A stretch of 64,000 nt of DNA. It comes from Janthinobacterium tructae. GTDB lineage: Bacteria > Pseudomonadota > Gammaproteobacteria > Burkholderiales > Burkholderiaceae_D. The DNA lies in assembly GCF_006517255.1 (NCBI RefSeq), contig NZ_CP041185.1, positions 1-64,000 of the forward strand, given 5' to 3'. The position numbers were made by a program, and so were the translations under genes. Under the pieces are notes generated by a model that ran no database searches, had not been told where the DNA came from, and worked only from the letters and a program-made list of their open reading frames with translations. Numbering within the stretch: position 1 is the stretch's first letter; every line of letters starts with the position of its first letter. Below, piece by piece: positions 9,767 through 50,000 of this stretch.

Positions 9767-11415
9767 GTGGCCACCTGCCATTGCAGGTAGCAGACGCTGA
9801 CGGGCATGGCGTGCTCGGCGCAATACGCGATCCAGCGCAGCTGGTTGTCTTGCAGGCGGTCGCCAGGACCCTTGACTTCGATCATGCGGTAGCGTTGCTC
9901 GGCCGGCCAGAACTGGATCAGGTCGGGAAAGCCGCTGCGGTTGCTTTTGATGTCGAGCAAGATGCGCTCGAACGCTTTCTTCAGGTGCCTGGCCGGGATG
10001 CAGGCCAGCGCCAGGTCCAGCAAGCCATCCTTGAGCACGTCCCAGCTGACGAAGGGCGAGACGATGCCGTGCTTGGCCGCAAGCGTGGCGCGTATCGTCA
10101 CTGGATAAGTGCCGTCGTCCAGCTGCGCCAGGCAGGCGGCAAAGTCCAGGCTGCGGCGCTGGTGAAAATCGGCGCTGTGCAAGTCGGCCGGGCCACGGTG
10201 AAACGGGTGGAAGAAGGCGCCGGGCATGGCTTTGAAGATGGCGGGCCAGCACAGCAGTCCGAACAGCGAGTTGATCAGGGTGTTTTCCACGTAATACACG
10301 GGTGCGTCGTCCTGCATCAGATGTTGCTGCACCACGCTTTCCACGTAGTACGCTTCGCCTGGATATGGCAGCAGCAGGTCGATACGCTCCACGCTGGCCG
10401 CCGCGTTGGTTGCCTGTTTCGCATGGCCCAGCTTGCGCCGCAAACGCGGTGCCATGCGCAGCAGCAATTGCTGTTCCGCTTCGCTTTCCGGCGCGGCCAG
10501 GGCGAGCGTCAATCGTTCGTAGGCCGCTTGCGGCTGCTCATCTTTTTCCAGCACGCGGATGGCGCGGCCGCGCGCCCCCGGATAGCGGCAATCGGCGTAG
10601 GCGCGGTAGGCGGCGGGCCAGTCCTGGCATTTCTCCAGGTGCTGGGCGATCTGGAAGCGCAGCTTGTCGCGCCGGCTGGCCAGCCAGGTATTGTCCTCGG
10701 ACAAGGGGAGCGCGGCCAGCTCCTGCAGCACCTCGTCTGCCGGCGCGCTGTCATTGTAGCGTTCGCGGCACTGGTGCAGCACTTCGTAGTGCTCGATATC
10801 CCGGCGCGTGCGAAAGCCGCGCGACTGCGGCGAGAATTCCACCTTTTCGTATTGATACACACCGAGGTCGGACAGCACGAATTCCGACCAGTCCTGGTGA
10901 TAGTTGCCAAAGTAAATCAGGCGCAGGCGGTCGCACAGCGCTTGCAGGCCGATGCGGTACAGCACGTCGCCGGAGGCCGGATGCCAGGCGGAAAACGGTT
11001 TATTTTCCGCATGCTGCTCGCGCAAGGCTTCCAGCTGCTCGGCCTTGCGCGCCGCCTTCAGGGGCGCGGCGAGGCCGAAGGCCAGGGCGATCTCCGCCTT
11101 CAGCAGTTGCTCGAACAGCTCATCGAGCGAGATGGCGGGATCGGCCTCGACCCAGCCCGTATTCAGCAAGGGCAGGGCGGCGGCACGCGTGTCGCCGATT
11201 TCCGGGTAATTGAGCTTGCTGGCGCGAAACAGACAGCCCTTGCGCATGACGAGACGCACGAACAGCGCGCGCGACGGTTGCGGCAATGCGCCGAATGCGG
11301 CGATGAACTGCGTTTCTTCAGCGCTCAGCAGATCGGCGTAACGGGCGCAGATCCAGCTCAGCACGTCCTGGAAATTGTCCAGATAGTACAGGGGATTTTC
11401 CAGGACTCTCAGCAT
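9763..11415 (-). CDS. FAN1-like structure-specific nuclease (VRR-NUC domain)
   Basis: A 550-residue protein whose last 100 residues hold the VRR-NUC catalytic motif: Asp498 in 'SGFPDLIQF', then Glu513-x-Lys515 in 'MIEVKGPGD' followed by 'LQDNQLRWI'. The Asp-to-Glu spacing of 15 matches FAN1. The long alpha-helical N-terminal and middle regions fit the SAP/TPR-like body of bacterial FAN1, which cuts 5' flaps and helps repair interstrand crosslinks. It is cotranscribed with the FeS helicase (4-bp overlap). A near-consensus LexA box lies about 40 bp upstream of the start, so damage induction is expected. Confidence 0.87.
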   Translation of the reverse strand: MLRVLENPLYYLDNFQDVLSWICARYADLLSAEETQFIAAFGALPQPSRALFVRLVMRKGCLFRASKLNYPEIGDTRAAALPLLNTGWVEADPAISLDELFEQLLKAEIALAFGLAAPLKAARKAEQLEALREQHAENKPFSAWHPASGDVLYRIGLQALCDRLRLIYFGNYHQDWSEFVLSDLGVYQYEKVEFSPQSRGFRTRRDIEHYEVLHQCRERYNDSAPADEVLQELAALPLSEDNTWLASRRDKLRFQIAQHLEKCQDWPAAYRAYADCRYPGARGRAIRVLEKDEQPQAAYERLTLALAAPESEAEQQLLLRMAPRLRRKLGHAKQATNAAASVERIDLLLPYPGEAYYVESVVQQHLMQDDAPVYYVENTLINSLFGLLCWPAIFKAMPGAFFHPFHRGPADLHSADFHQRRSLDFAACLAQLDDGTYPVTIRATLAAKHGIVSPFVSWDVLKDGLLDLALACIPARHLKKAFERILLDIKSNRSGFPDLIQFWPAEQRYRMIEVKGPGDRLQDNQLRWIAYCAEHAMPVSVCYLQWQVAT

Positions 11416-11455
11416 GGGGATGGTAATAGGGCAAGTGGCAAGGCGATGATTTTTA

Positions 11456-11471
11456 CTGTGTTTATATACAG
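11456..11471 (-). promoter_or_regulatory. LexA (SOS) box upstream of the FAN1-helicase operon
   Basis: CTGTGTTTATATACAG fits the proteobacterial CTGT-N8-ACAG operator, with TA before and TT after it as in strong SOS boxes. It sits 41-56 bp upstream of the nuclease start on the minus strand, where LexA would cover the promoter. Confidence 0.8.
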
Positions 11472-11509
11472 TTTAAACCTTCCGCTGCCGCTTGCCCAGC
11501 GAATTATGG

Positions 11510-12229
11510 TCAGCCAGCCGTGCTGTAGGCGAAACAGCTGCCGAACTTTTCGTAAGGAATGCATTCCTCGCGCAGGCTGGCCAGCTCGGTATCGGTCAGC
11601 AAGCCCCGATGCGCCTCTTTTCTTCCTTTTGGCAGCACGACCTCGTAATCGACGATGTCCCTTGCCAGCAAAGTCTGCAACACTTCAGCTTGCCGCGCCG
11701 TCAGGTAGCGCGCATGCGTGCCGAGGGTGTTTGTCAGTTGCTCCCTGAATTCCTCATCGCTGACCTCGTTGTAGGTATCCTGGTCCGCCATGCTGTTCAA
11801 CAACATGTGAAACAGGAAGTCGTGCAGGTTTTTCGCCAGGTATTGGGCTTCATTCTGGTCATGCCACAGCAGCACGATGGGCATCTCGCCATCGTGCTGG
11901 CTGGAAGCGAAAAAGCAGTAATGGTCGCCCGCGCCCGATTGCGCGAAGGGGATGAACTGCAAGGCGGGATCGATCTGCCGGTAATCGTCCGCGTCGCGCA
12001 AGGTGTCCGCTGCTTCGGCAACGGCCTCGATATTGAGCAATTCAAAATCATCGGCATGCAGCAGCAGTGTGGGTTTATCCTTTAATGTGGGATAGACCAG
12101 CTTGTACCAGTCGGGGCCATATTCGCCCACGGCCAGCATGCCGTCGCGCTCCAGCTGGCGGTACAGCGAAGGGTAAGTAAAGCCGTGTTGCTGTTCCATT
12201 TCTGACAGTGTCATGTTTGCCCTGTTCAA
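11510..12229 (-). CDS. SMI1/KNR4 (SUKH)-like protein of unknown function
   Basis: A 239-residue soluble protein with the look of the SUKH fold: 'EMEQQHGFTYPSLYRQLERDG' at the N-terminus, a central 'DDFELLNIEAVAEAAD', and a beta-rich 'IPFAQSGAGDHYCFFASSQ' followed by 'EMPIVLLWHD'. SUKH proteins are often immunity proteins for polymorphic toxins, but no toxin gene is nearby, so this may be a stand-alone domestic copy. ATG 12214 is an alternative start five codons in. It is read away from the MFS gene, with about 140 bp between the two starts. Confidence 0.7.
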   Translation of the reverse strand: MNRANMTLSEMEQQHGFTYPSLYRQLERDGMLAVGEYGPDWYKLVYPTLKDKPTLLLHADDFELLNIEAVAEAADTLRDADDYRQIDPALQFIPFAQSGAGDHYCFFASSQHDGEMPIVLLWHDQNEAQYLAKNLHDFLFHMLLNSMADQDTYNEVSDEEFREQLTNTLGTHARYLTARQAEVLQTLLARDIVDYEVVLPKGRKEAHRGLLTDTELASLREECIPYEKFGSCFAYSTAG

Positions 12230-12370: not shown

Positions 12371-13600
12371 ATGAAAAACATCATCCTGATTTCCGCCGCC
12401 TGTCTGCTGGCGCTGCTGTCGACCATCGGCGCCTCGCTGCCATATCCTATCCTGCCGCCGCTGTTCGCGGCCGAGGCGCCGAATGCCTTCAATAATTTTC
12501 TCGGCTTGCCGTCCAAATTGCTGTTCGGTCTGGCGCTGACCATCAACCCGCTGGGCTTGCTGATCGGCTCGGCCTTGCTGGGCCCCTTGTCCGACCGCTA
12601 TGGCCGCCGCCCCTTGCTGATGCGCACGGCCGTGGGCGCCGCCATCGGCCACGCCATCACGGCCTGGGCGCTGGTGATCCAGTCCTACCCGCTGTTTATT
12701 GTCGCCCGTTTCATCACGGGTTTGCTGGAAGGGAACGGTGCCGTGGCGCGCGCCATGCTGGCCGACCAGCTGACTGGGCCGTTGCGCCTGCGCGCCATGT
12801 CGTGGCTGAACGGCGCGTTTTACCTGGGCTGGCTTGTGGGCCCCATCCTGGCGGGCGCGACCCTGCACTGGGGCGTGACGGTGCCGTTCTGGATCGCCGC
12901 CGCCGCCCTGATGCTCGTCGCCGTGCTGGTGGCCGTGGGTTTGCCGCGCGAAACGCCTTCGCTCTTGACGACGTCATGGTGGCAAGTGGCGCGCGACCGC
13001 CATTCGCTGAACCTGCTGCGCCATGAAGAGCTGCGCACCCTGTTCATCGTGCAGCTGGCGTTCACTTGCGGCGTGGCCAGTTTTTATGAGTTCTATCCGC
13101 TGTGGCTGGTCGAGACAGCCGCTTACCATGCTCAGGAGATTGCCTGGGTGAATGTGGGTTTGTGCGGCACGATGACCATCACGTCCTTGCTGGCGGGCGG
13201 GCCCAGCCGCCACGCGCCGCTGCTGCGTGCCAGCTGGTATGCGTGCGGCGTGGCGCTGGCCGTAGGGGTCTTGGCGCTGGGCAACATCTGGGTGGGCATC
13301 GCCGCCATCGTGCTGTTCGGCATACCGAATGCGCTGTACAACACGGTGATACAGGGCTGGTGCGCCGAGAGCTTCAGCGCGCACGGGCAGGGTGCCGTAA
13401 TGGGCTTGCTGGCCACGACCTTTTGCATCGCCAACATCGTTGTCGCCCTCAGCGGCTCCGTGCTGACCCTGATCGACACGCGGCTGATACTCGTCGCGGG
13501 CGCCTTGTCCGCCGCCTGGGCCGCGTGGCGCATGGTGGCCTGGCGCCGGCAGCTGGACGGCGCCGTTGACGCGAAGGCATGCCAGGATTTATGCAGCTAG
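12371..13600 (+). CDS. MFS transporter
   Basis: A 409-residue polytopic membrane protein with about 12 hydrophobic segments. The MFS signature between helices 2 and 3 is present ('GPLSDRYGRRPLLM'), and 'GLLEGNGAVARAMLAD' lies in helices 4-5. The drug:H+ antiporter-like (TetA-type) layout suggests export of a small molecule, but the substrate cannot be read from sequence. ATG 12371 is chosen because the hydrophobic first helix starts right after it. The gene stands alone, divergent from the SUKH-like gene. Confidence 0.85.
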   Translation: MKNIILISAACLLALLSTIGASLPYPILPPLFAAEAPNAFNNFLGLPSKLLFGLALTINPLGLLIGSALLGPLSDRYGRRPLLMRTAVGAAIGHAITAWALVIQSYPLFIVARFITGLLEGNGAVARAMLADQLTGPLRLRAMSWLNGAFYLGWLVGPILAGATLHWGVTVPFWIAAAALMLVAVLVAVGLPRETPSLLTTSWWQVARDRHSLNLLRHEELRTLFIVQLAFTCGVASFYEFYPLWLVETAAYHAQEIAWVNVGLCGTMTITSLLAGGPSRHAPLLRASWYACGVALAVGVLALGNIWVGIAAIVLFGIPNALYNTVIQGWCAESFSAHGQGAVMGLLATTFCIANIVVALSGSVLTLIDTRLILVAGALSAAWAAWRMVAWRRQLDGAVDAKACQDLCS

Positions 13601-13626
13601 GAGCTGCTCATCTTTCGGCGGGTATT

Positions 13627-13638
13627 GGGGGGGGGGGG
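13627..13638. repeat. Homopolymer of 12 G
   Basis: Twelve consecutive G lie 27 bp after the MFS stop codon in a non-coding gap. Such tracts are prone to slippage during replication and to sequencing errors. Confidence 0.9.
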
Positions 13639-13706
13639 CTGCGAATATCTGCTGGAGGGGGGCGGAGCGGGTACTGGATCGTGCCGGTGGATTCGTTGTA
13701 GGTCGG

Positions 13707-13804
13707 GTAGGTCGGATTAGCGCGCAAGCGCGTAATCCGACATCACCATTAGCGCCAACAATGCGTCGGATTACGCGCGGCGTTGCCGCGCTAATCCGAC
13801 CTAC
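13707..13804. repeat. REP-like double hairpin (REPIN), copy 1
   Basis: Outer arms GTAGGTCGGATTAGCGCG and its exact reverse complement enclose a second inverted pair built on GTAATCCGACA and TGCGTCGGATTAC. The same architecture recurs at 58440-58523 and, in a diverged form, at 34250-34303. It lies between the convergent MFS and phasin genes. Elements like this are usually mobilised by a RAYT transposase; none is encoded in the window. Confidence 0.8.
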
Positions 13805-13809
13805 ATCGT

Positions 13810-14409
13810 TTATTTTTTAGCCGCCTTCGGCTTGGCCGCTGGCGCCGCCTTTTCAGCCGCAGCTTGTGCGCCCGCCGTGGCCTGCGCCACTTGTGCGCTG
13901 GCTTTGGCAATTTGATCTTCCACGGTTTTCACGGCTTGCTTGGTGGCCTTGGTGACTTGCTCGTAGCCGAGGAAGGCGTTGTCGATGGCCGCCTTGACGA
14001 TGGCCACGGCGTTCTCCGAGCCTGGCGGCACGTTTTTCGTGACGTCGTAGATCAGGGCGCTCAAATTGCTTTTCGCTTCGGCCACATGGGCTTCGGCGGC
14101 CGTGGTGAATTCCGTGTGGATTTCCTTGATGATGTCGTCGAGTTGCTGTTTATACGCTTTCGCGCCGGCCACGCCCGGTTGCAGCTGGGCGGCGGCGGCG
14201 GCCATGGCGGCCTTCGGATCCTTGGCCTGGCTGATTTCCTTGCCGGCGGCAAGGCCATCCTCGATGCCGGACTTGGCGGTGGCCATGTTCAGCGCCAGCA
14301 CCTGTTCCACGCCTTGCACGGCCTTGGAGGTGAGGGTGTTGAAGGTCATCAGCTGGAATTCAAACAGGGCCTTGGTGGCCGATGCGAATTGTTCGGGATT
14401 CGTAAACAT
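13810..14409 (-). CDS. phaP: Phasin family protein
   Basis: A 199-residue helical protein starting 'MFTNPEQFASATKALFEFQLMTF', the classic phasin_2 opening, with a long coiled central region ('KQQLDDIIKEIHTEFTTAAE') and an Ala/Lys/Pro-rich tail that ends in Lys-Lys. Phasins coat polyhydroxyalkanoate granules and control their size. No PHA synthase gene is nearby, as is normal for phaP copies. The start codon at 14409 is preceded by GAGGAG. Several phasin paralogues are usual in this family of bacteria. Confidence 0.92.
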   Translation of the reverse strand: MFTNPEQFASATKALFEFQLMTFNTLTSKAVQGVEQVLALNMATAKSGIEDGLAAGKEISQAKDPKAAMAAAAAQLQPGVAGAKAYKQQLDDIIKEIHTEFTTAAEAHVAEAKSNLSALIYDVTKNVPPGSENAVAIVKAAIDNAFLGYEQVTKATKQAVKTVEDQIAKASAQVAQATAGAQAAAEKAAPAAKPKAAKK

Positions 14410-14516
14410 GTGGTCTCCTCGGTTTGAATAGATACGTTCTTATCGTTCCATACTCTTTCGACGCCGCAATGCCATCGCTTGCTCTCAAGCCGGTGCCCCG
14501 TGTGGTCATGTCCCCA

Positions 14517-37363: not shown

Positions 37364-37456
37364 GGAGACGTGGCCGAGTGGCCGAAGGCACATCCCTGCT
37401 AAGGATGCATACGGCTTATACCTGTATCGTGGGTTCGAATCCCACCGTCTCCGCCA
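37364..37456 (+). tRNA. tRNA-Ser(GCT)
   Basis: A 93-nt class II tRNA with encoded CCA: acceptor stem GGAGACG/CGTCTCC, discriminator G, anticodon stem CATCC/GGATG around CTGCTAA (anticodon GCT), a long variable arm and T-loop GTTCGAATC. The 3' end is the insertion site of the island that follows; its last 14 bases are part of the duplicated att sequence, so the gene stays intact. Confidence 0.96.
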
Positions 37457-37498
37457 GTATTTTTAAAAACCCGCTTCGGCGGGTTTTTTCATTTCCGC
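37443..37498. repeat. attL: left 56-bp direct repeat
   Basis: It begins with the last 14 bases of tRNA-Ser and runs through its terminator to ATTTCCGC. The copy at 45799-45854 is identical; the bases on either side differ. Confidence 0.92.
37465..37489 (+). terminator. tRNA-Ser terminator
   Basis: AAAACCCGC and GCGGGTTTT close on TTCG and run into six T. The sequence is repeated in attR (45821-45845). Confidence 0.88.
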
Positions 37499-37748: not shown

Positions 37749-38957
37749 ATGGCAATCAGGATGAACAAGCTGTCGGCGCTGGTCGTCGGTCGCACCAGGG
37801 AGCCAGGGTATTACGGGGATGGCGGCGGACTGGTGCTGCAAGTATCCGGCGCTGGCGCCAGGAGCTGGCTGTTTCGTTACAGCGTAGCTGGCAGGCGTCA
37901 CGAAATGGGGCTGGGTTCTTGTCTGGCAGTCGATCTGGTCGAGGCGCGCAAAAAGGCGCGGCAATGCCGTTTGCTGCTGAGCGAAGGGCGCGATCCGCTG
38001 GCAATGCGCCGCCAGGAAAAACAGGCCGGGATGCTGGCGCGTGCGCGTCAAATGACCTTTGAACAGTGTGCGGCGTCGTATATCGCGGCGCACCGGCATG
38101 GCTGGAGAAATGCCAAACATGTGGCGCAGTGGGAAAACACCCTGGCCGCCTATGTGTTCCCATTGGCGGGGGCGCTGCCTGTCGCGGCGATCGACACCGA
38201 TCTGGTCGTCAAGGTGCTCGATGCAATCTGGTTGTCAAAGACGGAGACGGCAACGCGCATACGCGGCAGAATCGAATGCATACTCGACTGGGCAACGGTC
38301 AGCGGCTTTCGTCAGGGAGAAAATCCGGCGCGCTGGAAAGGCCATCTGGAAAATCTGCTGGCCAATCCGAACAAGGTTTCTCCGGTGAAAAACAGGCCGG
38401 CCCTGCCGTGGCAAGAGATCGGCAGATTCATGGCCGCCTTATCGGGTCAGAAAGGGATTGCTGCCAGGGCGCTGGCGTTTGCCATCCTGACGGCTGCGCG
38501 CTCAGGAGAGGTCAGGGGTGCGCGGTGGCCGGAGATTGACCTGGAGGCGGCCCTGTGGACGATTCCAGCGCAGCGCATGAAGGCAGGCAAGGAGCATCGC
38601 GTGCCGCTCTCTGGTGGGGCGCTTGCGCTGCTGCGCGCAGTGCCGCGTCAGGGGGACATCATCTTTTCAGGCCGTAAGCGTGGCACGCAGTTGTCGGACA
38701 TGAGTTTGACGGCAGTCTTGCGCCGCATGCAGTTTGACGACATCACCGTGCACGGTTTCCGTTCTTCCTTCCGTGACTGGTGCGCCGAGGCGGCGGCCAA
38801 TGCCTTTTCACGTGAGGTATGCGAGCATGCGCTGGCGCACCGCTTGCCGGACAGGGTGGAAGCCGCCTATCGGCGCGGCGACTTGTTCGACAAGCGTATC
38901 GTGCTGATGCAGGCATGGTCTGACTTTTGCAGCAATCCCGCACCGTCTGTCGTGTGA
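37749..38957 (+). CDS. int: Tyrosine recombinase / island integrase (P4-like)
   Basis: A 402-residue integrase. An N-terminal arm-binding domain (residues 1-95; 'YYGDGGGLVLQVSGAGARSW') precedes a SAM-like core-binding domain (about 100-200) and the catalytic domain with Arg in 'LTAARSGEVRGARW', Lys in 'RMKAGKEHRVPL', 'HGFRSSFRDWCAE' (His-x-x-Arg) and the nucleophile in 'VEAAYRRGDLFD'. It inserts and excises the island at tRNA-Ser. The start follows CGGGAG. It is transcribed inward from attL, as is usual. Confidence 0.94.
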   Translation: MAIRMNKLSALVVGRTREPGYYGDGGGLVLQVSGAGARSWLFRYSVAGRRHEMGLGSCLAVDLVEARKKARQCRLLLSEGRDPLAMRRQEKQAGMLARARQMTFEQCAASYIAAHRHGWRNAKHVAQWENTLAAYVFPLAGALPVAAIDTDLVVKVLDAIWLSKTETATRIRGRIECILDWATVSGFRQGENPARWKGHLENLLANPNKVSPVKNRPALPWQEIGRFMAALSGQKGIAARALAFAILTAARSGEVRGARWPEIDLEAALWTIPAQRMKAGKEHRVPLSGGALALLRAVPRQGDIIFSGRKRGTQLSDMSLTAVLRRMQFDDITVHGFRSSFRDWCAEAAANAFSREVCEHALAHRLPDRVEAAYRRGDLFDKRIVLMQAWSDFCSNPAPSVV

Positions 38958-40778: not shown

Positions 40779-41549
40779 ATGAATACCACAGAAATTTCAG
40801 GCTGGGTTCTTGATAAAGCTATAACTCCAGGAGCGGGGCTTACTCAGGGGGATCTTATAAGATTTGATAGCGAAGAGGACCCTCTTAGATCCATGGGCAT
40901 CGTCGTCACTGCAGACTGTGACCTTGAACGGAAAAAGCATGCCCGTTTAGTTACCTTAATTCCAGTGGTTTCGGTAAAATCTCTTCTTGAAAATTATCTT
41001 CTCCCCGAAGACTGTGAAAGAAAAAGAGATCAAATTGAAATTTATGCATTGAAAAATTTTGGTATTGATCGTTCCCAAGAGCCAGATGCCAGAAGAAGCA
41101 TATTAATTGAAAAAATTTCGAGTAATTCTGGTGATATAGATGCCGCCTCATTGCTTGCTGCTAAGTTTTTGATAGATCAACTTGATTCTATTTCCATTGC
41201 TGAATATAAAGTATTAATGGATGCTATAAAAATTAAGGTAAAAAAAATAGAAGCTCTTACGAAGCAGATTGTTGATAGGGGAGATCTCTTGATTTTGCCG
41301 ACAGCCCGAGATTTTGGGATTGCCGATGATATCGCCTGGGTTCGACATATATGGCAGGTTCCAATTAGTTCTATTGCCATTAAAACATCTGAGGTAAAAA
41401 TATTACCTGGAGAACGAATTGCGAGACTGGACTCTCCTTATCGATATAGGCTGACTCAATTGATGGCGCAAGTTTTTTCTGATATTGGATTACCTGATAT
41501 TCCACACTCAGTAGAAGAAAGAATAACGGAGGTGTATGGCTATGACTAA
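40779..41549 (+). CDS. Island cargo gene A: protein of unknown function
   Basis: I do not recognise this 256-residue soluble protein. Notable parts: 'LTQGDLIRFD' (21-30), a motif 'MGIVVTADCDLERKKHARLV' (39-58) with adjacent acidic residues and a cysteine, a central helical region ('AEYKVLMDAIKIKVKKIEAL') and a C-terminal 'PYRYRLTQLMAQVFSDIGLP'. The ADCDL motif after a hydrophobic strand could be a metal or active site. Codon use is AT-rich, unlike the chromosome. Start is uncertain: ATG 40758 is seven codons upstream, and neither has a strong ribosome site. It overlaps the helicase gene by 8 bp, so both are made together. Confidence 0.7.
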   Translation: MNTTEISGWVLDKAITPGAGLTQGDLIRFDSEEDPLRSMGIVVTADCDLERKKHARLVTLIPVVSVKSLLENYLLPEDCERKRDQIEIYALKNFGIDRSQEPDARRSILIEKISSNSGDIDAASLLAAKFLIDQLDSISIAEYKVLMDAIKIKVKKIEALTKQIVDRGDLLILPTARDFGIADDIAWVRHIWQVPISSIAIKTSEVKILPGERIARLDSPYRYRLTQLMAQVFSDIGLPDIPHSVEERITEVYGYD

Positions 41550-43662
41550 ATACATAATTATGACCGAAGCCGTATTGGATTACTGCTTGATTAATGAGAA
41601 ATTTTCGGATGATTTTATGCCAATTGAAGGGCATGACTTAAAATCTGCAGAATTATCGAGTGATGTAGTTGGTTTTTACACTGCGAACGAACCAGAAATG
41701 CCTTATGCGGCCTTGGTTAATAAGGCATGTTTGGAACAATTAAAAAATACAGGATGTACACCGGACGATGCATTTCGGCGAATCGCGCGAGTGGTTAAAG
41801 AGCTGAAAGCTCCTCCAATTCATCTTCCGCGGCAGTGGTCGGAATATCATCATAAAAACTTTTTAGCTTTTTTTGCTTTGCCAAAAACGCAATCAACTCG
41901 GCGATGGATTGTTGATATAGGTGGAGCGATTAATACGGCGAGGTTTGATGTCCTGGCGCTTACAAGTACGGATGTTGACCTTGGTAGATATGTCCCATCC
42001 GCTTGGCCCGATGATATTGAAAATCAATTGGCAGCTTTAGTTGCGAACGGATTTAAATCTAATCGCCCAGACGATACAGGGTCATTATCCGAAGAGGTTG
42101 ATTTGCAAGCAATTGGGAGTACTTCTGTTGCAAATAATCGCACTTTTGAGGAGTGGGCTGGGCAACTCACGAAGACGCAAAATGTCGTCTTGGGGCATCC
42201 CATTAATGCTTCAATTCGAATTGTCGGGCCGGCAGGGTCTGGTAAAACTCTTGCGCTTTCTATGCGAGCTATCCAGATATCGCGTGATATTGAGGTGCAA
42301 TCGAAGGGTAAGAAAATTCTCATCGCGACTCATAGCTGGGCAATGTCAGAACGTATTGATGGCGTGTTACGAGCTTTGAATGGAGGTATTTCACCAACTG
42401 GAATTACCACATTCCCGTTGTTGTCATTACTCGAACTACATGCCGGTCATATTGGGCAACAACGCACGGAAGTGATCGGTGACGACTCCAGTGATGGACG
42501 ATTTAAATCTATCGAGATAATTAAAAACCTTCTTGGAACTTCGGATCGTGGAGCTGGAACGGGATTGTCAAAATGGATAATTGACGGATTGGCAATAAAT
42601 GAAGATAGTCGCGCTCGATTAGATTTAATTCTTAATTTGTATGATGAGATTTCTGGTGTTCTTACGGCATCAGGTGTTGCTCCTGATGATCCTGATGCTA
42701 TTCGTCAATATATAAATAATAGTAGGGAAGATTGGATGCCCCCATTTTTAACAGTGGCGGACCGGGGCTTTGTTGTGTCGATCTATCGGGAATTCATCCA
42801 GGCGCTGGTAGATAGATCATCAATTACAACTGATCAATTTGTTCTTGATTCGATAAGGGTATTGGAGACGTTTACTTGGCGCATGAGAAAGGAAACTGAT
42901 GGTTATGATTACATTTTTGTTGATGAGCTTCAACTCTTCGATCCACAAGAGCGTTCAGCACTTGAATTGTTGGGGCGTTCGAGAAAAGGTGTCCCATTCG
43001 TTACTGCAGAAGATCCGTCGCAAGGGATTTTTTCGGCCTTGAATTCACGTCCGGGAATCGCACAAAACGAGCTTGTTTATTTGGACACCGTACATCGATT
43101 TAATAAAAAAATATTTGATCTTATTAGTTTTATGTATCAAAAATTTCCGCTTAATACATTGCCATTGAAAATTGCGAAATCAGAAGAAAGAGGCGAAAAG
43201 CTACCCCGATTATATACATTAATGGATGACAAGACTGCTCTGGATAAGGCAGTTGGACTTGCTGGCCAAATCAATAAGACAGCTTCGTCTTCGGACAGGA
43301 TTTGCCTCGCAACGTTAGGTGATGTGGATGTTGAGTTAGCGAGGCTGCTGGAGGAGCAGAAGATTTCAGTTACTCGTTTGGCCAGTTTTGATGATATTGA
43401 ACAATTGGCTTACAGTAAAAGATCCATTGTCGTAGCTCCGTGGCAATTTATTGGTGGAACTCAATTTAGCCATGTCATTGTCGTGGCAGCAGGAATATCG
43501 CCTCCACAATCGCAATTTGGGAAGCTTCGAGAGCGGATCTCGATCTATCTGTCGTGCAGTCGAGCGGCTCAATCGTTGGACGTTGTTTGTTCCGACTACA
43601 CACCTTTGGTAATCGGCGAAGCGCGAGATCAAGAATTACTTGCAGTAGAGGGAATTTCGTAG
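41542..43662 (+). CDS. Island cargo gene B: SF1 (UvrD-like) helicase/ATPase
   Basis: A 706-residue protein. About 215 residues of unrecognised N-terminal sequence precede Walker A 'VGPAGSGKTLALSMRA' (Lys235), 'KKILIATHSWAMSERI' (motif Ia), motif II 'YIFVDELQLFDPQE' (Asp461-Glu462), 'VTAEDPSQGIFSAL' (motif III), 'LDTVHRFNKKIFDL' (motif IV), 'VVAPWQFIGGTQFSHVIVVAAG' region (motif V) and 'YLSCSRAAQSLDVV' (motif VI, Arg674). It should translocate on DNA or RNA. The GGAGG at 41528-41532 sits nine bases before ATG 41542 and only three before ATG 41536, which decides the start. AT-rich, like gene A. Confidence 0.82.
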   Translation: MTKYIIMTEAVLDYCLINEKFSDDFMPIEGHDLKSAELSSDVVGFYTANEPEMPYAALVNKACLEQLKNTGCTPDDAFRRIARVVKELKAPPIHLPRQWSEYHHKNFLAFFALPKTQSTRRWIVDIGGAINTARFDVLALTSTDVDLGRYVPSAWPDDIENQLAALVANGFKSNRPDDTGSLSEEVDLQAIGSTSVANNRTFEEWAGQLTKTQNVVLGHPINASIRIVGPAGSGKTLALSMRAIQISRDIEVQSKGKKILIATHSWAMSERIDGVLRALNGGISPTGITTFPLLSLLELHAGHIGQQRTEVIGDDSSDGRFKSIEIIKNLLGTSDRGAGTGLSKWIIDGLAINEDSRARLDLILNLYDEISGVLTASGVAPDDPDAIRQYINNSREDWMPPFLTVADRGFVVSIYREFIQALVDRSSITTDQFVLDSIRVLETFTWRMRKETDGYDYIFVDELQLFDPQERSALELLGRSRKGVPFVTAEDPSQGIFSALNSRPGIAQNELVYLDTVHRFNKKIFDLISFMYQKFPLNTLPLKIAKSEERGEKLPRLYTLMDDKTALDKAVGLAGQINKTASSSDRICLATLGDVDVELARLLEEQKISVTRLASFDDIEQLAYSKRSIVVAPWQFIGGTQFSHVIVVAAGISPPQSQFGKLRERISIYLSCSRAAQSLDVVCSDYTPLVIGEARDQELLAVEGIS

Positions 43663-43830
43663 TTTGGCAGTAATAGACGTGGCTTGGGGGCGAGATTTCG
43701 TATTGATTGAGATGTCTGGCTAGCAATTTGCTTTAGTAATCTGTGACCATTTCCGGCCAAGTTGCCCTGCTCGCGAAGAGGGGCTGCAGACGAATTCCTC
43801 TGCGATAGAGCGATTTTTTAGAAAGATAAG

Positions 43831-45213
43831 ATGAACATCGAATGGGGAAAATACGCAGTCATTGCTTTTATTGACTCAAATGTGGCACTTGAGTGTTTGG
43901 CGCTTGAACAACTGCCTTGGCGCGAAATTGAGGGTGCAGGGAGCGTTCTTATTCTTGTTACGCCAACAGTCATGCAAGAGGTCGATTCAAAGAAGAACCA
44001 TGCTCGATTGGGGGATCACGCCAGGCGTTTCAATCGAACTCTTAGACCGCTATTGACTGGGAACGAAACCGTAGTCGTCCGTTCCTCGCCAGCGCCAGTC
44101 GTTGAGGTTGCGCTTGCTGATTGTGGTGTAACAGATTGGAACAGCTACCCAGATTTCGACCGCGAAGAAGCTGATGCCAGGGTTGTAGTGCAAGCACACT
44201 GCGCACGCGGCCCAGATATTGATAAATGTATTCTCATTAGTCATGACATTCGACCGTTATATCTTGCGCGGCAACTCGGCTTAAAAGTGTATCAAATCGG
44301 AGACAACTGGCTTCGACCGAAAGAAGTTTCAGAGTCCGAGAAAAAGGCCGGTAACCTGCAACGTGAACTCAACTCGCTTAAGAGCCGGGAGCCAAAGTTG
44401 GAAGTCCTGTTTGAAGCGTCGGCATATTCAGTTGACACGTATCGAATAACGAGTCTTTCAAGTGTAGAGCGCAAGGAGATTGAGCAGACGATTGTTGGGT
44501 TGAATCCTATCCCAATGCAAGAACGATCTGGTCCACTCTCATTCAGTCCCTTCGATTATGACAGCTCGCTAGATGGACGCTATTCTCAATGGGAGAAAGA
44601 AGTCATTCCCAACTTCATGCAGGAGTATGAGCGCAAGTTGGAGTTGAATTTTGGACAGGTCGAGGTACGCTTTCGAATCAATAATGTTGGTCAAGTTCCT
44701 GCTGAAGCATTGTTGATAAGGCTTACAGCAAGCGGTGGCTGGTTGAATGAGCGTTACGTGCTAGCAAGTCCTTGTGGACCTCATGCGCCGAAACCACGAT
44801 TTAATCACTTTGATCCAATGCATGGACTAAGTTCAAAGGCGTGGATGCAACGGCAACCTGGAACTCATGAGTTCATCGTTATTGAACCGCCCGACCGTAC
44901 GACCCAAGTTCAGATATCATGCCAGGACTTTCGCCACGGTTTTGAACACGAATATACGTTAATTGGCTGGGTCGATCCGCACGCTGACGGACTATCGATC
45001 AGGGTAGTTGTTACTGCGTCGAATCTTCATGGTGATGTGTGCGGGGAGATTCTGGTTCGTCCATGCGTGACGGACATAACCGCTTCGGACCTCGTGGAGC
45101 TTGACTCTATGAAGTTCCGCCAGCCTCCTCCAGTTGTTGAGCTATTGAAAGCGGCTGGGGAGGTTAAAGATCACTCTGCATTTGAGCTTGATGGTTCTGA
45201 TTGGGATAAGTAA
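43831..45213 (+). CDS. Island cargo gene C: PIN-domain ribonuclease-like protein
   Basis: A 460-residue protein. Residues 8-155 form a PIN domain with all expected acidic positions: Asp15 ('AFIDSNVALE'), Glu50 ('TVMQEVDSKK'), Asp115 ('DREEADARVVV') and Asp139 ('LISHDIRPLYLA'), then 'GLKVYQIGDNWL'. PIN domains cut RNA with Mg. A coiled linker ('SEKKAGNLQRELNSLKS') leads to a large C-terminal region with beta-rich segments ('VRFRINNVGQVPAEALLIRL') of unknown role, perhaps sensing. It follows the helicase by 168 bp on the same strand, and its base composition is intermediate. It is much larger than PIN toxins of toxin-antitoxin pairs, and no antitoxin gene is adjacent. Confidence 0.82.
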   Translation: MNIEWGKYAVIAFIDSNVALECLALEQLPWREIEGAGSVLILVTPTVMQEVDSKKNHARLGDHARRFNRTLRPLLTGNETVVVRSSPAPVVEVALADCGVTDWNSYPDFDREEADARVVVQAHCARGPDIDKCILISHDIRPLYLARQLGLKVYQIGDNWLRPKEVSESEKKAGNLQRELNSLKSREPKLEVLFEASAYSVDTYRITSLSSVERKEIEQTIVGLNPIPMQERSGPLSFSPFDYDSSLDGRYSQWEKEVIPNFMQEYERKLELNFGQVEVRFRINNVGQVPAEALLIRLTASGGWLNERYVLASPCGPHAPKPRFNHFDPMHGLSSKAWMQRQPGTHEFIVIEPPDRTTQVQISCQDFRHGFEHEYTLIGWVDPHADGLSIRVVVTASNLHGDVCGEILVRPCVTDITASDLVELDSMKFRQPPPVVELLKAAGEVKDHSAFELDGSDWDK

Positions 45214-45798: not shown

Positions 45799-45854
45799 CA
45801 CCGTCTCCGCCAGTATTTTTAAAAACCCGCTTCGGCGGGTTTTTTCATTTCCGC
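45799..45854. repeat. attR: right 56-bp direct repeat
   Basis: Identical to 37443-37498; it carries a copy of the tRNA-Ser 3' end and terminator. Chromosomal GC-rich sequence resumes immediately after it. Confidence 0.92.
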
Positions 45855-45983: not shown

Positions 45984-46180
45984 ACGCCGTCCCCTCACCT
46001 CAGGCACTAGCAGCCAGCTCCGCCGCCGGCCCCCACCCGCAAGCCGCAAATCTCAAAATACAACAAGTGACTTAGTGTGAGTATTGACTCTTTGTCATTA
46101 TGGATAATAGCAATGTTACCAATAATAAAATACGCATGCCCAGCCATGCTTCCATTGCCGAGTCCAATCAAGGAGTTGTC

Positions 46181-48226
46181 ATGTCCTCTCGTCTTCCCCG
46201 CAGGCACGCATTGCTGTGCCTGGCCGCCATGCCGTTTGCCTGCAGTACCGCCTTCGCTGCGGAAAGCAACGTCAATCTGAATCTCGACCTGAATCTGAAG
46301 GCCGTGCCCAACGTCGAACTGCGGCTGCTGCAGGAGCCGCCGAAACTGAAGGCGCGCGCCAGGCCCGCCAACCGCGCGGCGAGCAGGCGCGACGAGTTTG
46401 AAAAGTCGTATGACATGTACATCCGCTATGCCAACGGCAGCATTTACAACCCGACCACGGCCAGGCATGACAAGGTGCGCCTGCGCTCCTACCAGCAGAC
46501 GGACGGCCTGGCGCTCGATGGTCGCGACGAGCATGCCGCCACCTTCATGGCGCCCACCGTGGTGATGGCGCCGGGGCAGACCGTGCGTTTCAAGTTGCAT
46601 AATCGCTTGAAGCCGCTGCCTGCCGAGCAGTGCGCGACCACCGATATCAATGCGGCGCGCCCGCGCGGCTGCTTCAACGACACCAATCTGCATTCGCACG
46701 GCCTGTGGGTGTCGCCTTCGGGCAATAGCGACAATGTGCTGATATCGATCAAGCCTGGCGTCGATTTCGAGTATGAATACAATATTCCCATCGACCATCC
46801 GGCCGGCACGTTCTGGTATCACCCGCACCAGCATGGCGCGACGGCGATGCAGGTCGCCAGCGGCATGGCCGGGGCGCTGGTGGTCGAAGGCGAGCGTTAT
46901 CCGACGGCCACGGCGAATGGCGACCTCGACGTCGTGCTGAAACAATTCCAGCCCGATGATGGCAGCGGCAGTGCTGGCGAAGTGATGCTGCTGCAGCAAA
47001 TTCCCTATGACTGCCCCAGCAACAGCCTGACGCCGGCCAAGCCGTGCGACAAGGATGCGGTGGGCGTGCTCGAGGATTTCGATCAGGTCGAAGATCCGAA
47101 TGCCTGGCTGAAGTCGGGCCGCTATACCTCGGTCAACGGCAAGGTGCAGCCGGTGCTGAAGATGAAGACGCAGCGCCTGTACCGCTGGCGCCTGATCGAC
47201 ACGGGTTTCCAGGCAACCGTGGTGCTGCGCATCCGCCGCGCGAATGATCCGCAAAAGCTGTTCCAGGCGCTCAGCGTGGCCAACCAGGACAAGGACGTGA
47301 TGGCGTTGTGCGATGGCGAGGACGTCACGCAGTTCGAGGTGGCCAGCGACGGCTTGACGCACGACCGGATCATCCCGAAGACGCTCAATTACCTGCAACC
47401 GGGCTACCGTAGCGATATCCTGTTTTCGCTGCCGAAAGCGGGCGCCTATTGCGTGTATGCGGAAACCAACGTCAACAACATGACGACCATGCATGACGTC
47501 AACAACACGCGCCTGATCGGCGTGATCGCCGCCAAGACCAACGCCAAGGCATCGGCCCGCGCCAGGGCGGGCGAGTCGCCGCGCGACTTCCTGCTGACCG
47601 AGTTGCGCAATGCCGTCAAGAGCCTGCCCGGCGCCCAGTTGCCCGATAGCGTGAAGAGCACCATCCTTGGCGACCTGGACGATGGCCTCAAGCTCGGCAA
47701 GTTCGTCCCGCATGCCAGTTTCAGCGAGGCGGCCAAGGACGCGATGCGCGGCAAGACGAAAGGGTATGCGACCTTCAATATTGCCACGGTGGACGGCAAG
47801 ACCCGTTTCATGGTGGAAGGCAAGCCGGAAGATTCACCGACACCCGAGATGAAGTACGTGTATGACCCGCACCGCGTGGACCACACGCTGGTGCTGGGCA
47901 CCGAGCAGATTTGGGAGCTCGCTTCGAAGAATGGCAACCATCCCTTCCATATCCACGTCAATCCCTTCCAGATCATCGGCATCACCCGCACCGACGGCGG
48001 CACGGTCGATGCGCAATACAAGGATCTGATCGGCACGTGGAAAGACACCTTGCTGGTGATGAAGGGTCACAAGATCGAGATTGCCACGCGTTATCAGCGC
48101 TACATCGGCGAATACGTGCTGCATTGCCACATCCTCGAGCATGAAGACCAGGGCATGATGCAAAACGTCAAGGTGGTGCTGCCGGATGGCAAGGGCGGTG
48201 GCGACTTGGGCGGACACGGCCACTGA
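46181..48226 (+). CDS. Multicopper oxidase (laccase-like), exported
   Basis: A 681-residue protein with a signal peptide ('HALLCLAAMPFACSTAFAAE'). All four copper motifs are present: 'LHSHGLW' (His171), 'WYHPHQHG' (His214), 'HPFHIHVNPF' (His587) and 'LHCHILEHEDQG' (His648 region, with the type 1 Cys). It oxidises phenols or metal ions with reduction of oxygen to water, in the periplasm. ATG 46181 follows AAGGAG at seven bases and starts the signal peptide; an upstream in-frame ATG at 46100 adds an unlikely polar extension. It is the first gene of an apparent five-gene oxidase cluster. Confidence 0.92.
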   Translation: MSSRLPRRHALLCLAAMPFACSTAFAAESNVNLNLDLNLKAVPNVELRLLQEPPKLKARARPANRAASRRDEFEKSYDMYIRYANGSIYNPTTARHDKVRLRSYQQTDGLALDGRDEHAATFMAPTVVMAPGQTVRFKLHNRLKPLPAEQCATTDINAARPRGCFNDTNLHSHGLWVSPSGNSDNVLISIKPGVDFEYEYNIPIDHPAGTFWYHPHQHGATAMQVASGMAGALVVEGERYPTATANGDLDVVLKQFQPDDGSGSAGEVMLLQQIPYDCPSNSLTPAKPCDKDAVGVLEDFDQVEDPNAWLKSGRYTSVNGKVQPVLKMKTQRLYRWRLIDTGFQATVVLRIRRANDPQKLFQALSVANQDKDVMALCDGEDVTQFEVASDGLTHDRIIPKTLNYLQPGYRSDILFSLPKAGAYCVYAETNVNNMTTMHDVNNTRLIGVIAAKTNAKASARARAGESPRDFLLTELRNAVKSLPGAQLPDSVKSTILGDLDDGLKLGKFVPHASFSEAAKDAMRGKTKGYATFNIATVDGKTRFMVEGKPEDSPTPEMKYVYDPHRVDHTLVLGTEQIWELASKNGNHPFHIHVNPFQIIGITRTDGGTVDAQYKDLIGTWKDTLLVMKGHKIEIATRYQRYIGEYVLHCHILEHEDQGMMQNVKVVLPDGKGGGDLGGHGH

Positions 48227-48293
48227 TCGTTCCTGGCGCAGGCGCGCCTGCCGCGCTTGCGCCCCTCCTAACCTGTCTCTGGAGCATCTGCCC

Positions 48294-50000
48294 ATGTTAC
48301 GCATGAAAACCTTGACCTTTTCCCTGCTGGCTGGCCTGGCGTGCGCCGGCGTCCAGGCTGGCGCCGACACGGGCGCGCTGGCTGTCGCCCGTTGCAGCCC
48401 TGCCTTGCCGGCGCAGGCGGAGCAGGGCGGCGCGCGCATCGTGCGCTACCGCAAGAACATCGATGAGCTCACTCCTGCCGAGCTTGATGCATTCAAGCAT
48501 GCGGTGGGCGAGATGAAGCGCAAGAGCCAGGAAAACGTGTATGACCGGCGCGGCTTTTTGTGGCAAGCCTGGGTGCACAACTGTCCGTCTGTCGATGTGT
48601 TCAATGACCGCCAGGCGTCCTTGCCTGGCGAGGGCTTGAAGTGGCTGCTGAGCGACCCGTCGCGCAATAGCTGCGATGTCGCCTATTTCCTCGACCAGCC
48701 GCCCACGCAGGAAAATTCTCATCTGGAATTCCCGGGCGAGTGCGAACACCAGAAAAATACCTTTCTGCAATGGCACCGGGCGCAGCTGTATTTCTATGAG
48801 CAAGCCTTGCAGGCCGCCGACCCGAACGGCGAGCGGGGCCCCAGCACGCGCAATGTCGCGCTGCCGTACTGGAATTTCACCCGCAAGCCCAGCGGCGTGC
48901 GCTATCCGAAAGCCTTCGAGGACGTCGATTCGCCGCTGTATGATTCGACCCGCATCAAGGGCAGCCTCGACAGTTCCATGGCCACTGCCTCGCCGAACTT
49001 GCTGGGCTACCAGATCTATTACATGGACTGGAACGAGTTCGGCGGCGACGAGTATGGCAGCGGCGGTGGCGGCAACCTGGAAACGCGCATCCACAATCAC
49101 ATGCACGCCTTTTACATGGGCGGCAACATGGGCGACAACATCACGGCAGGGCTGGACCCGCTGTTTTACGCCTTCCATAATTTTCTCGACTACAGCTTTG
49201 AAAAATGGCTGGACGAGCATGGCGACAGCGGCATCCGGGGCAGCAGCCGCAGCACCTTCCTGCGCAGCGAACAGGATGCCGGCCTGGCCAGGCCCGTCGG
49301 CTGGAATGCGGGCGACGGCGATCCCCAGCGCAGCGATTCGGGCAGCTATACGGCGAACATGGGGCAGGCCGGGATTTACTTCGACACCATCAAGCAAGGG
49401 TATGGCTTCCAGCCCACCTACGGCGGCGAGTTCGTGCGGAAAAAGGACTTGCAAGTGCTGATCGACCAGCGTCAGCAAGCCGGTTTCGCCTTTGGCGACA
49501 ACCAGAAAAGCCTGTTCGCCGCCCTGTTGAGCGATGAGGCCAGCGATGGCACGGTGGCCCGGCCCGACATCGTCCTGAGCGGCAGCTATACCATCGCCAG
49601 GGCGCCGGTCGCCAGGGACAAGCGCGCCAACCTGCACCTGGATCGCGCCCATGCCATGGAAGACTACAGTTTCCAGGCCGATGTGTATATGCACCCTGCG
49701 AACGTGGCCGTGCGGCTCGGCGACAAGCAGTTTCGCGACCGTTACCTGATCACCAGCACCAGCCACTGGGCCTTGTCCGGCACGCATGCGCACGCGGCTT
49801 ACGCCATCGACGTCGATATCACCGGCATCGTTGACAGCCTGGTGCCCAAGAAGCGCGGCCAGACCTGGCGCATCACGACGGCCATTACCACCAATGACAA
49901 GGGGCGCGGCCTGATGCGGCAAAGCGATTTCTCCAAACCGTCGGTCGCCATCGTCGATCGCCGACAGCCTCCCCAGCCCAGCTATGAAGGAGTGAAATGA
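48294..50000 (+). CDS. Tyrosinase family copper oxidase, exported
   Basis: A 568-residue type 3 copper protein. A signal peptide ('LTFSLLAGLACAGVQA') is followed by the CuA region ('AWVHNCPS', 'ECEHQKNTFLQWHRAQLYFYEQ') and CuB region ('HNHMHAFYMGGNMGD', 'LDPLFYAFHNFLDYSFEKW'). A C-terminal 150-residue beta-rich part may shield the active site, as in latent tyrosinases. It would hydroxylate or oxidise phenols to quinones (melanin-like products). ATG 48294 follows GGAG at nine bases; it starts 67 bp after the multicopper oxidase gene and overlaps the next gene (AATGATG). Confidence 0.9.
   Translation: MLRMKTLTFSLLAGLACAGVQAGADTGALAVARCSPALPAQAEQGGARIVRYRKNIDELTPAELDAFKHAVGEMKRKSQENVYDRRGFLWQAWVHNCPSVDVFNDRQASLPGEGLKWLLSDPSRNSCDVAYFLDQPPTQENSHLEFPGECEHQKNTFLQWHRAQLYFYEQALQAADPNGERGPSTRNVALPYWNFTRKPSGVRYPKAFEDVDSPLYDSTRIKGSLDSSMATASPNLLGYQIYYMDWNEFGGDEYGSGGGGNLETRIHNHMHAFYMGGNMGDNITAGLDPLFYAFHNFLDYSFEKWLDEHGDSGIRGSSRSTFLRSEQDAGLARPVGWNAGDGDPQRSDSGSYTANMGQAGIYFDTIKQGYGFQPTYGGEFVRKKDLQVLIDQRQQAGFAFGDNQKSLFAALLSDEASDGTVARPDIVLSGSYTIARAPVARDKRANLHLDRAHAMEDYSFQADVYMHPANVAVRLGDKQFRDRYLITSTSHWALSGTHAHAAYAIDVDITGIVDSLVPKKRGQTWRITTAITTNDKGRGLMRQSDFSKPSVAIVDRRQPPQPSYEGVK

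Follow-up and report, generated by a model that had tools for sequence, protein, structure and literature searches.

Gabija is a two-gene system in which the OLD nuclease GajA is combined with GajB, a UvrD-like helicase of the SF1 type. The sensor helicase HamB of the Hachiman system activates its partner nuclease HamA upon DNA damage (PMC12278908), ArmD of ARMADA type II is a UvrD-family helicase with a RelE-like domain (PMC12458937, preprint), and a system composed of a helicase and a DUF2290 protein is found in P4-like satellites and prophage hotspots (PMC9122126). In the present work, we are concerned with two adjacent genes, A and B, whose pairing and co-inheritance are established with high confidence. 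The pair probably has a role in defence, a statement in which our confidence is moderate; we lean slightly towards the more specific reading of A-B as a two-gene anti-phage or anti-invader module, composed of a sensor helicase (B) and an effector with a predicted MazF/PemK/CcdB fold (A).

The window, i.e., the whole stretch of DNA that was analysed, comprises the first 64 kb of a single-contig genome of 6.31 Mb. It contains an 8.4-kb island, which is integrated at a tRNA-Ser gene (GCT; positions 37364–37456, plus strand, ARAGORN) and carries three intact genes, A, B and C. The island is framed by two copies of a 56-bp direct repeat, attL (37443–37498), formed by the 3' end of the tRNA plus the hairpin-like stretch after it, and attR (45799–45854), which are identical in 56 of 56 positions without extension on either side. 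Inside the repeats, a tyrosine-recombinase integrase of 402 amino acids is encoded (37749–38957, plus strand), with Pfam matches to PF22022 (4.6e-30), PF13356 (3.3e-17) and PF00589 (3.5e-12). At least two genomes of the genus (G092 and G146) have empty sites, where the left flank is joined straight to the right flank; in three further genomes (G285, G005 and G273), this integrase region (95–98% identical DNA) is found at this tRNA together with different cargo. We regard the mobility of the island as demonstrated. The initial annotation had described a tRNA-borne mobilisable island with A, B and C as the only intact cargo. The tRNA-borne character is borne out; the term mobilisable is not, given that no relaxase or mobilisation gene was recognised among the ORFs of at least 80 amino acids scanned from repeat to repeat, which comprise A, B, C, the integrase and five small ORFs. 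As far as long ORFs are concerned, the statement on the cargo is correct; the five small ORFs are located at 39.1–40.4 kb and lack a significant Pfam match. The GC content is 0.389 for A, 0.431 for B, 0.487 for C and 0.62 for the integrase.

Sister islands at the same tRNA-Ser have cargo of their own. In G273 (L065, 13933–18591), there are two large genes, coding for 872 and 665 amino acids, neither of them with a PADLOC match; an AAA_22 match of the first one stays below the cut-off. The two genes possibly represent another undescribed cargo. The island of G005 (L064, 3129–3988) is short, with a small two-gene cargo, whose first protein we presume to resemble BPSL0067-type amidases. Just to the right of attR, two long ORFs follow in the window (46100–50000); the first (46100–48226) resembles a multicopper oxidase and the second, from 48186 on, a tyrosinase-like copper protein.

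As proposed initially, the reading frames of A, B and C are open and arranged in the same direction. Gene A (40779–41549, plus strand) is an open ORF for 256 amino acids whose structure model predicts a MazF/CcdB-type barrel protein, and gene B (41542–43662, plus strand) encodes a UvrD/Rep-type SF1A helicase of 706 amino acids with an N-terminal region of its own (residues 1–200). Position 41542 is the more likely start of B, because a GGAGGT sequence ends eight bases ahead of this ATG; therefore, A and B would overlap by 8 bp. Gene C (43831–45213, plus strand; 460 amino acids) begins 168 bp after B.

The SF1 helicase motifs that the initial annotation had assigned to B could be located at residue 229 (GPAGSGKT), from residue 461 (DELQ), from 514 (LDTVHRF), from 634 (WQFIGGTQF) and at 669 (YLSCSRA), they are kept across 17 diverse members, and PF00580 matches B in Pfam at 2.4e-8. 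Together with its predicted UvrD/Rep fold, the motifs place B in the UvrD/Rep SF1A group; the closest folds are those of repair helicases, and the VIA rows for B span residues 199–706 only. The GajB models of PADLOC match window B weakly and partially (best 3e-6, 24.1 bits), and distant B proteins clearly better (up to 2.7e-14 and 50.8 bits for a protein from an E. coli plasmid). Because of these better matches, B may belong to a known family of defence helicases, as one of its branches, and may not be new. The N-terminal region could not be assigned to a family, which counts against our main reading. For this region, ARMADA ArmD had given the idea of a RelE-type domain, which found no support: RelE/ParE families are absent from the Pfam rows for 21 B N-termini and hhalign comparison of the B N-terminus with 28 ParE-type proteins gave a probability of <1%.

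The core of gene A is confidently modelled as a MazF/PemK/CcdB-type barrel, a predicted assignment in which our confidence is good; in the model, both the MazF barrel fold and the CcdB-like barrel fold are recognisable, and the barrel appears interrupted by a helical insert of ~100 residues (about residues 66–166). A search with the A model in Foldseek returned nothing at an E-value of 0.001 or better, which counts against our main reading, and a convincing match for A is absent from BFVD. At the level of families, window A has no significant match in four libraries and no Pfam family at an E-value of 1 or better; neither window A nor five A proteins from other loci are significantly matched in Pfam and PADLOC, NCBIfam has no match for window A, PHROGs gave chance-level rows alone for three A proteins, and in the PDB, no sequence relative of A or C rises above chance-level rows. 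Because the scanned A proteins lack significant family matches, annotation by family models misses them.

Profile comparison by hhalign of A with 27 PemK and 10 CcdB proteins yielded probabilities of <1% each, with and without the insert; A is, thus, without sequence support as a PemK or CcdB protein, which counts against our main reading, although in the same set-up, the comparison of PemK with CcdB scored just 22.5%. (These sets, as well as that of the 28 ParE proteins, were chosen by script from the fetched loci according to mutual similarity.) In MazF, catalysis depends on Arg and Thr/Ser, and in CcdB, the C-terminal end poisons gyrase. Ahead of strand 2, 18 of the 27 PemK proteins contain Arg-Pro and 7 His-Pro; in an alignment made by eye, the Arg-Pro step is not seen in A, which also counts against our main reading. 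Beyond the aligned end at 235–236, A extends for about 20 residues. The ADCDL motif, to which the initial annotation had drawn attention, is strongly conserved: among 17 diverse A proteins, none deviates at A45, C47, D48, R189 or Q227, and 15 have T44. By their conservation, the polar residues C47, D48, R189, Q227 and T44 look like an active or ligand site; in any specific chemistry of the putative effector A, our confidence is low.

In an A-profile search of genome contigs, B is located directly downstream of A in all 15 loci (in two of them, L007 and L009, the contig ends within B), which include Herbaspirillum, Hydrogenophaga, Pseudomonas, Xanthomonas, Rhodanobacter and Acidithiobacillus as well as several Alphaproteobacteria and three Actinomycetota. 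By tblastn, B matches 88 of 72,556 plasmid records and 2 of 50,697 phage records, with an identity of <60% throughout, and in each of the seven loci inspected from these matches (six of the 88 plasmid records and one of the two phage records), a protein with the A motifs is encoded directly upstream. For the A protein of Leisingera, the annotated start is too short, the homology reaching further upstream. In 17 pairs, the distance from A to B lies between −10 and +13 bp; wherever the longest ORF began earlier, the start codon was set by hand. Pairwise distances of A and of B are correlated with r 0.923, a value that none of 5000 permutations attained.

The distribution of A-B is patchy and its prevalence low. 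Within the genus, a second pair is present in G285, with a B protein of 27% identity. B occurs in at least two of 294 genomes of the family, namely, the own genome and G285 (up to three B candidates scored per genome), and A in at least two of 369 genomes of the class, one of them marginal at 7.8e-4 (up to seven candidates scored per genome). An E. coli-type pair has matches in 120 of 5426 complete E. coli genomes, 109 of which cover at least 80% of the query; none of the 121 places is chromosomal, all being on plasmids. For the window's own A-B, E. coli DNA contains no match, and a single-sequence query of IMG/VR revealed no relative of B.

ORFs were listed around 14 of the 15 A-profile loci, and chosen neighbours were scanned at six of them, picked by eye and without a background rate. 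Directly upstream of A-B in L016 are the DISARM genes drmMI, drmA, drmB and drmC, the first of which runs beyond the stretch retrieved; in L017, type I restriction-modification (R-M) genes are arranged upstream in the order M-S-R, and in L018, a gene for a NACHT-ATPase with a weak Avs1b match (2.7e-8) is situated downstream. In L011, L013 and L014, where one protein each was scanned, no described defence system was found, the single neighbours being a PIN_8 domain protein, a protein with no match and a Hypoth_ymh protein, respectively. Two Agrobacterium pairs are located beside a multiubiquitin-ThiF-DUF6527-UvrD cluster, and in a P2-like Klebsiella phage, A-B occupies the gpQ-gpA interval, between the portal and the replication gene; this interval of P2 has been described as a defence hotspot (PMC9122126). 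The defence neighbours point to defence in a supportive, not a statistical, manner, and in this, the defence-like nature that had been suggested for the cargo finds backing.

Further observations on the surroundings of A-B pairs concern individual loci. The PIN_8 protein of L011 (Acidithiobacillus ferrivorans, 13236–14450; 8.8e-62) adjoins A-B and belongs to a PIN family other than that of C. On the E. coli plasmid pYJ4-a (L028, 23069–25000), genes for a SMODS nucleotidyltransferase and an S-4TM pore-forming effector, by annotation a CBASS-like combination, are found about 8 kb from A-B. On plasmid p1 of Paraburkholderia acidisoli (L073), translesion-polymerase genes are upstream of the pair, and a gene for 1359 amino acids without PADLOC match follows it (7881–11960). 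In G285 (L055, 121–1275), a DUF3800 protein is encoded upstream of A-B.

By analogy with Hachiman and ARMADA ArmD, we propose that B senses and A is unleashed. The UvrD/Rep-like SF1A motor B, with its variable N-terminal region, would serve as the sensor that engages aberrant DNA arising from infection, such as ends, forks or single strands. The part of the effector would fall to A, with its predicted barrel of the MazF/PemK/CcdB type and the helical insert; A would be kept inactive with B and be released or switched on by the ATP-driven movement of B. Active A would then stop cell growth; RNA cleavage is the most likely way, and poisoning of gyrase or of some other target a less likely one. 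A complex of A and B, the activity and target of A, the trigger of B and protection itself are elements that we infer. A farther-reaching version, which we regard as tentative and somewhat less probable than the module as such, is that of a widespread undescribed anti-phage type, in which an SF1A helicase would gate a MazF/CcdB-fold toxin, with the barrel split by a helical control domain and the active site rebuilt on T-A-x-C-D. If true, the immune systems built on a sensor helicase would come to include toxin-antitoxin barrels, and PIN proteins of the C type would be accessory components that several defence systems could exchange.

A different division of labour within a defence module would be that the barrel of A binds nucleic acid and, as an adaptor, loads B or regulates it, with B itself unwinding or displacing phage DNA intermediates. 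Consistent with this, the barrel is predicted in A without the MazF sequence signature, and B is a large protein with an extra domain, whose motifs are kept in the 17 diverse members. However, the invariant residues C47, D48, R189 and Q227 of A, together with T44 in 15 of 17 proteins, look like an active site or a ligand site, and the arrangement of a helicase motor with a small partner dedicated to it is reminiscent of the HamAB sensor-effector pair (PMC12278908). We consider an adaptor function of A unlikely.

Less probable still is that A-B is an addiction or stabilisation module, in which B would restrain the toxin-fold protein A, and retention would be due to post-segregational killing instead of defence. 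The MazF/CcdB-like predicted fold of A and the occurrence of A-B on plasmids, in a phage and on an island would fit such a role, but a helicase of 706 residues would be an unusual antitoxin, and A adjoins B, with no small antitoxin ORF seen between them. Moreover, some of the neighbours are dedicated defence systems and one pair resides in the P2-phage defence locus. We rate as improbable that the pair is a DNA-repair accessory of mobile elements without a role in defence; the fold of B is closest to repair helicases and one A-B pair adjoins translesion-polymerase genes, but the very patchy occurrence of A-B and the toxin-like predicted fold of A argue against this.

Gene C is best treated separately from A-B. 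Its product consists of a PIN part and a 300-residue C-terminal part, the latter without an assigned family, and is matched by PF13638 (PIN_4) at 1.2e-5 (26.1 bits, cut-off 21.9). When 37 sequences, C among them, were aligned, the complete PIN acidic set that had been noticed in the initial annotation (D15, E50, D115 and D139) proved invariant, and so did E113. At an E-value of 1e-3, C was not found in 20 A-B loci, within the flanks fetched, nor in five more (L027, L028, L055, L073 and L074), and A and B are absent from the four C loci inspected (L029, L054, L071 and L072). In the 294-genome family sample, C is present in the own genome and G219, and among 399 genomes of the order (up to four candidates scored per genome) in at least one, the own genome; tblastn matched 4 of 72,556 plasmid records, three of which were inspected.

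Relatives of C have various neighbours: that in L029 is near a type I R-M locus, that in L072 near a reverse-transcriptase gene, and that in G219 adjoins a DUF4238 protein (PADLOC DUF4238-Pers, 1.6e-62); activity against T7 has been reported for a DUF4238 protein (PMC9122126). The distant relative in L071 (5974–7347, Blastomonas plasmid pBSY18_4; 28% identity) lies in a Hachiman locus (hamA-hamB), where it overlaps hamB at the 3' end, and is possibly a Hachiman accessory PIN protein; an ABC-three-component system is located nearby. Judged from these four chosen loci, C seems to be linked with defence independently of A-B, and it is probably a separate cargo gene; in the proposed scheme, C would encode a PIN nuclease of a type associated with defence and reside with A-B on one island. 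The initial annotation had envisaged one three-gene system with a PIN nuclease and had named co-occurrence elsewhere as the point by which to judge it; A-B-C were not found together in the loci examined, and A-B recurs. C, thus, appears to fall outside the conserved unit. The identification of B as an SF1 helicase holds, and with A modelling as a MazF/CcdB-type barrel, the PIN protein is not the sole candidate for the effector. That A, B and C would nevertheless form one defence system with C as the nuclease is the least probable of all readings: the three genes are adjacent on one strand of one island, and the distant C homologue at the end of hamB indicates that C-type proteins can join helicase systems, but C was not found in the 25 fetched A-B loci, nor A and B in the four C loci inspected, and a 168-bp gap and a different GC content set C apart.

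In the open-licence papers in PMC that were searched, no description of a two-gene defence system combining a MazF/CcdB-fold protein with a UvrD helicase was found, in agreement with the initial view that no system of this composition is known. The A-B module is, thus, apparently undescribed, and large published candidate lists may already contain the pair. IbfA was discarded as a lead, being an ATPase-TOPRIM protein.

With Gabija, A-B has in common that it consists of two genes, one of them for a UvrD-like SF1 helicase; it differs in that B has its own 200-residue N-terminal region and that A, with its predicted MazF/CcdB fold, shows no match to an OLD-family nuclease of the GajA type. As the GajA partner is missing and A has no PADLOC or Pfam match, membership in Gabija is rejected. 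Hachiman is similar in the proposed principle, according to which a helicase senses aberrant DNA and a partner effector is unleashed; however, by PADLOC description, HamA is a DUF1837 protein and HamB a DEAD-box helicase, and neither A nor B has a HamA or HamB match at an E-value of 1 or better, so that membership is, likewise, rejected. Since A matches neither GajA nor HamA, we refuse an assignment to either system and keep their working principle as the best guess for A-B.

ArmD resembles the pair in coupling a UvrD-type motor to an RNase-toxin-type domain; in contrast, A is a separate gene with another predicted fold, and none of the YprA-like, BrxHII-like and PglX-like genes of ARMADA type II was recognised among the long ORFs between the repeats of the island. 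The helicase–DUF2290 system likewise consists of two genes, one of them for a helicase, and is situated at hotspots of phages or satellites (PMC9122126); A-B is not a member of it, A having no DUF2290 match in Pfam at an E-value of 1 or better. With MazF/PemK and CcdB, A shares the predicted fold of its core, but it is more than twice as long through the helical insert, is without a family-model match and has a helicase as partner. In Gabija and Hachiman, with which A-B was compared, a nuclease of a different type acts as the small partner; if our reading is true, a UvrD motor with a MazF/CcdB-fold partner would unite toxin biology and the sensing of DNA integrity within two genes. Relatives of the pair are found on E. 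coli plasmids (109 of 5426 genomes at a coverage of at least 80%), in a P2-like phage and in Actinomycetota.
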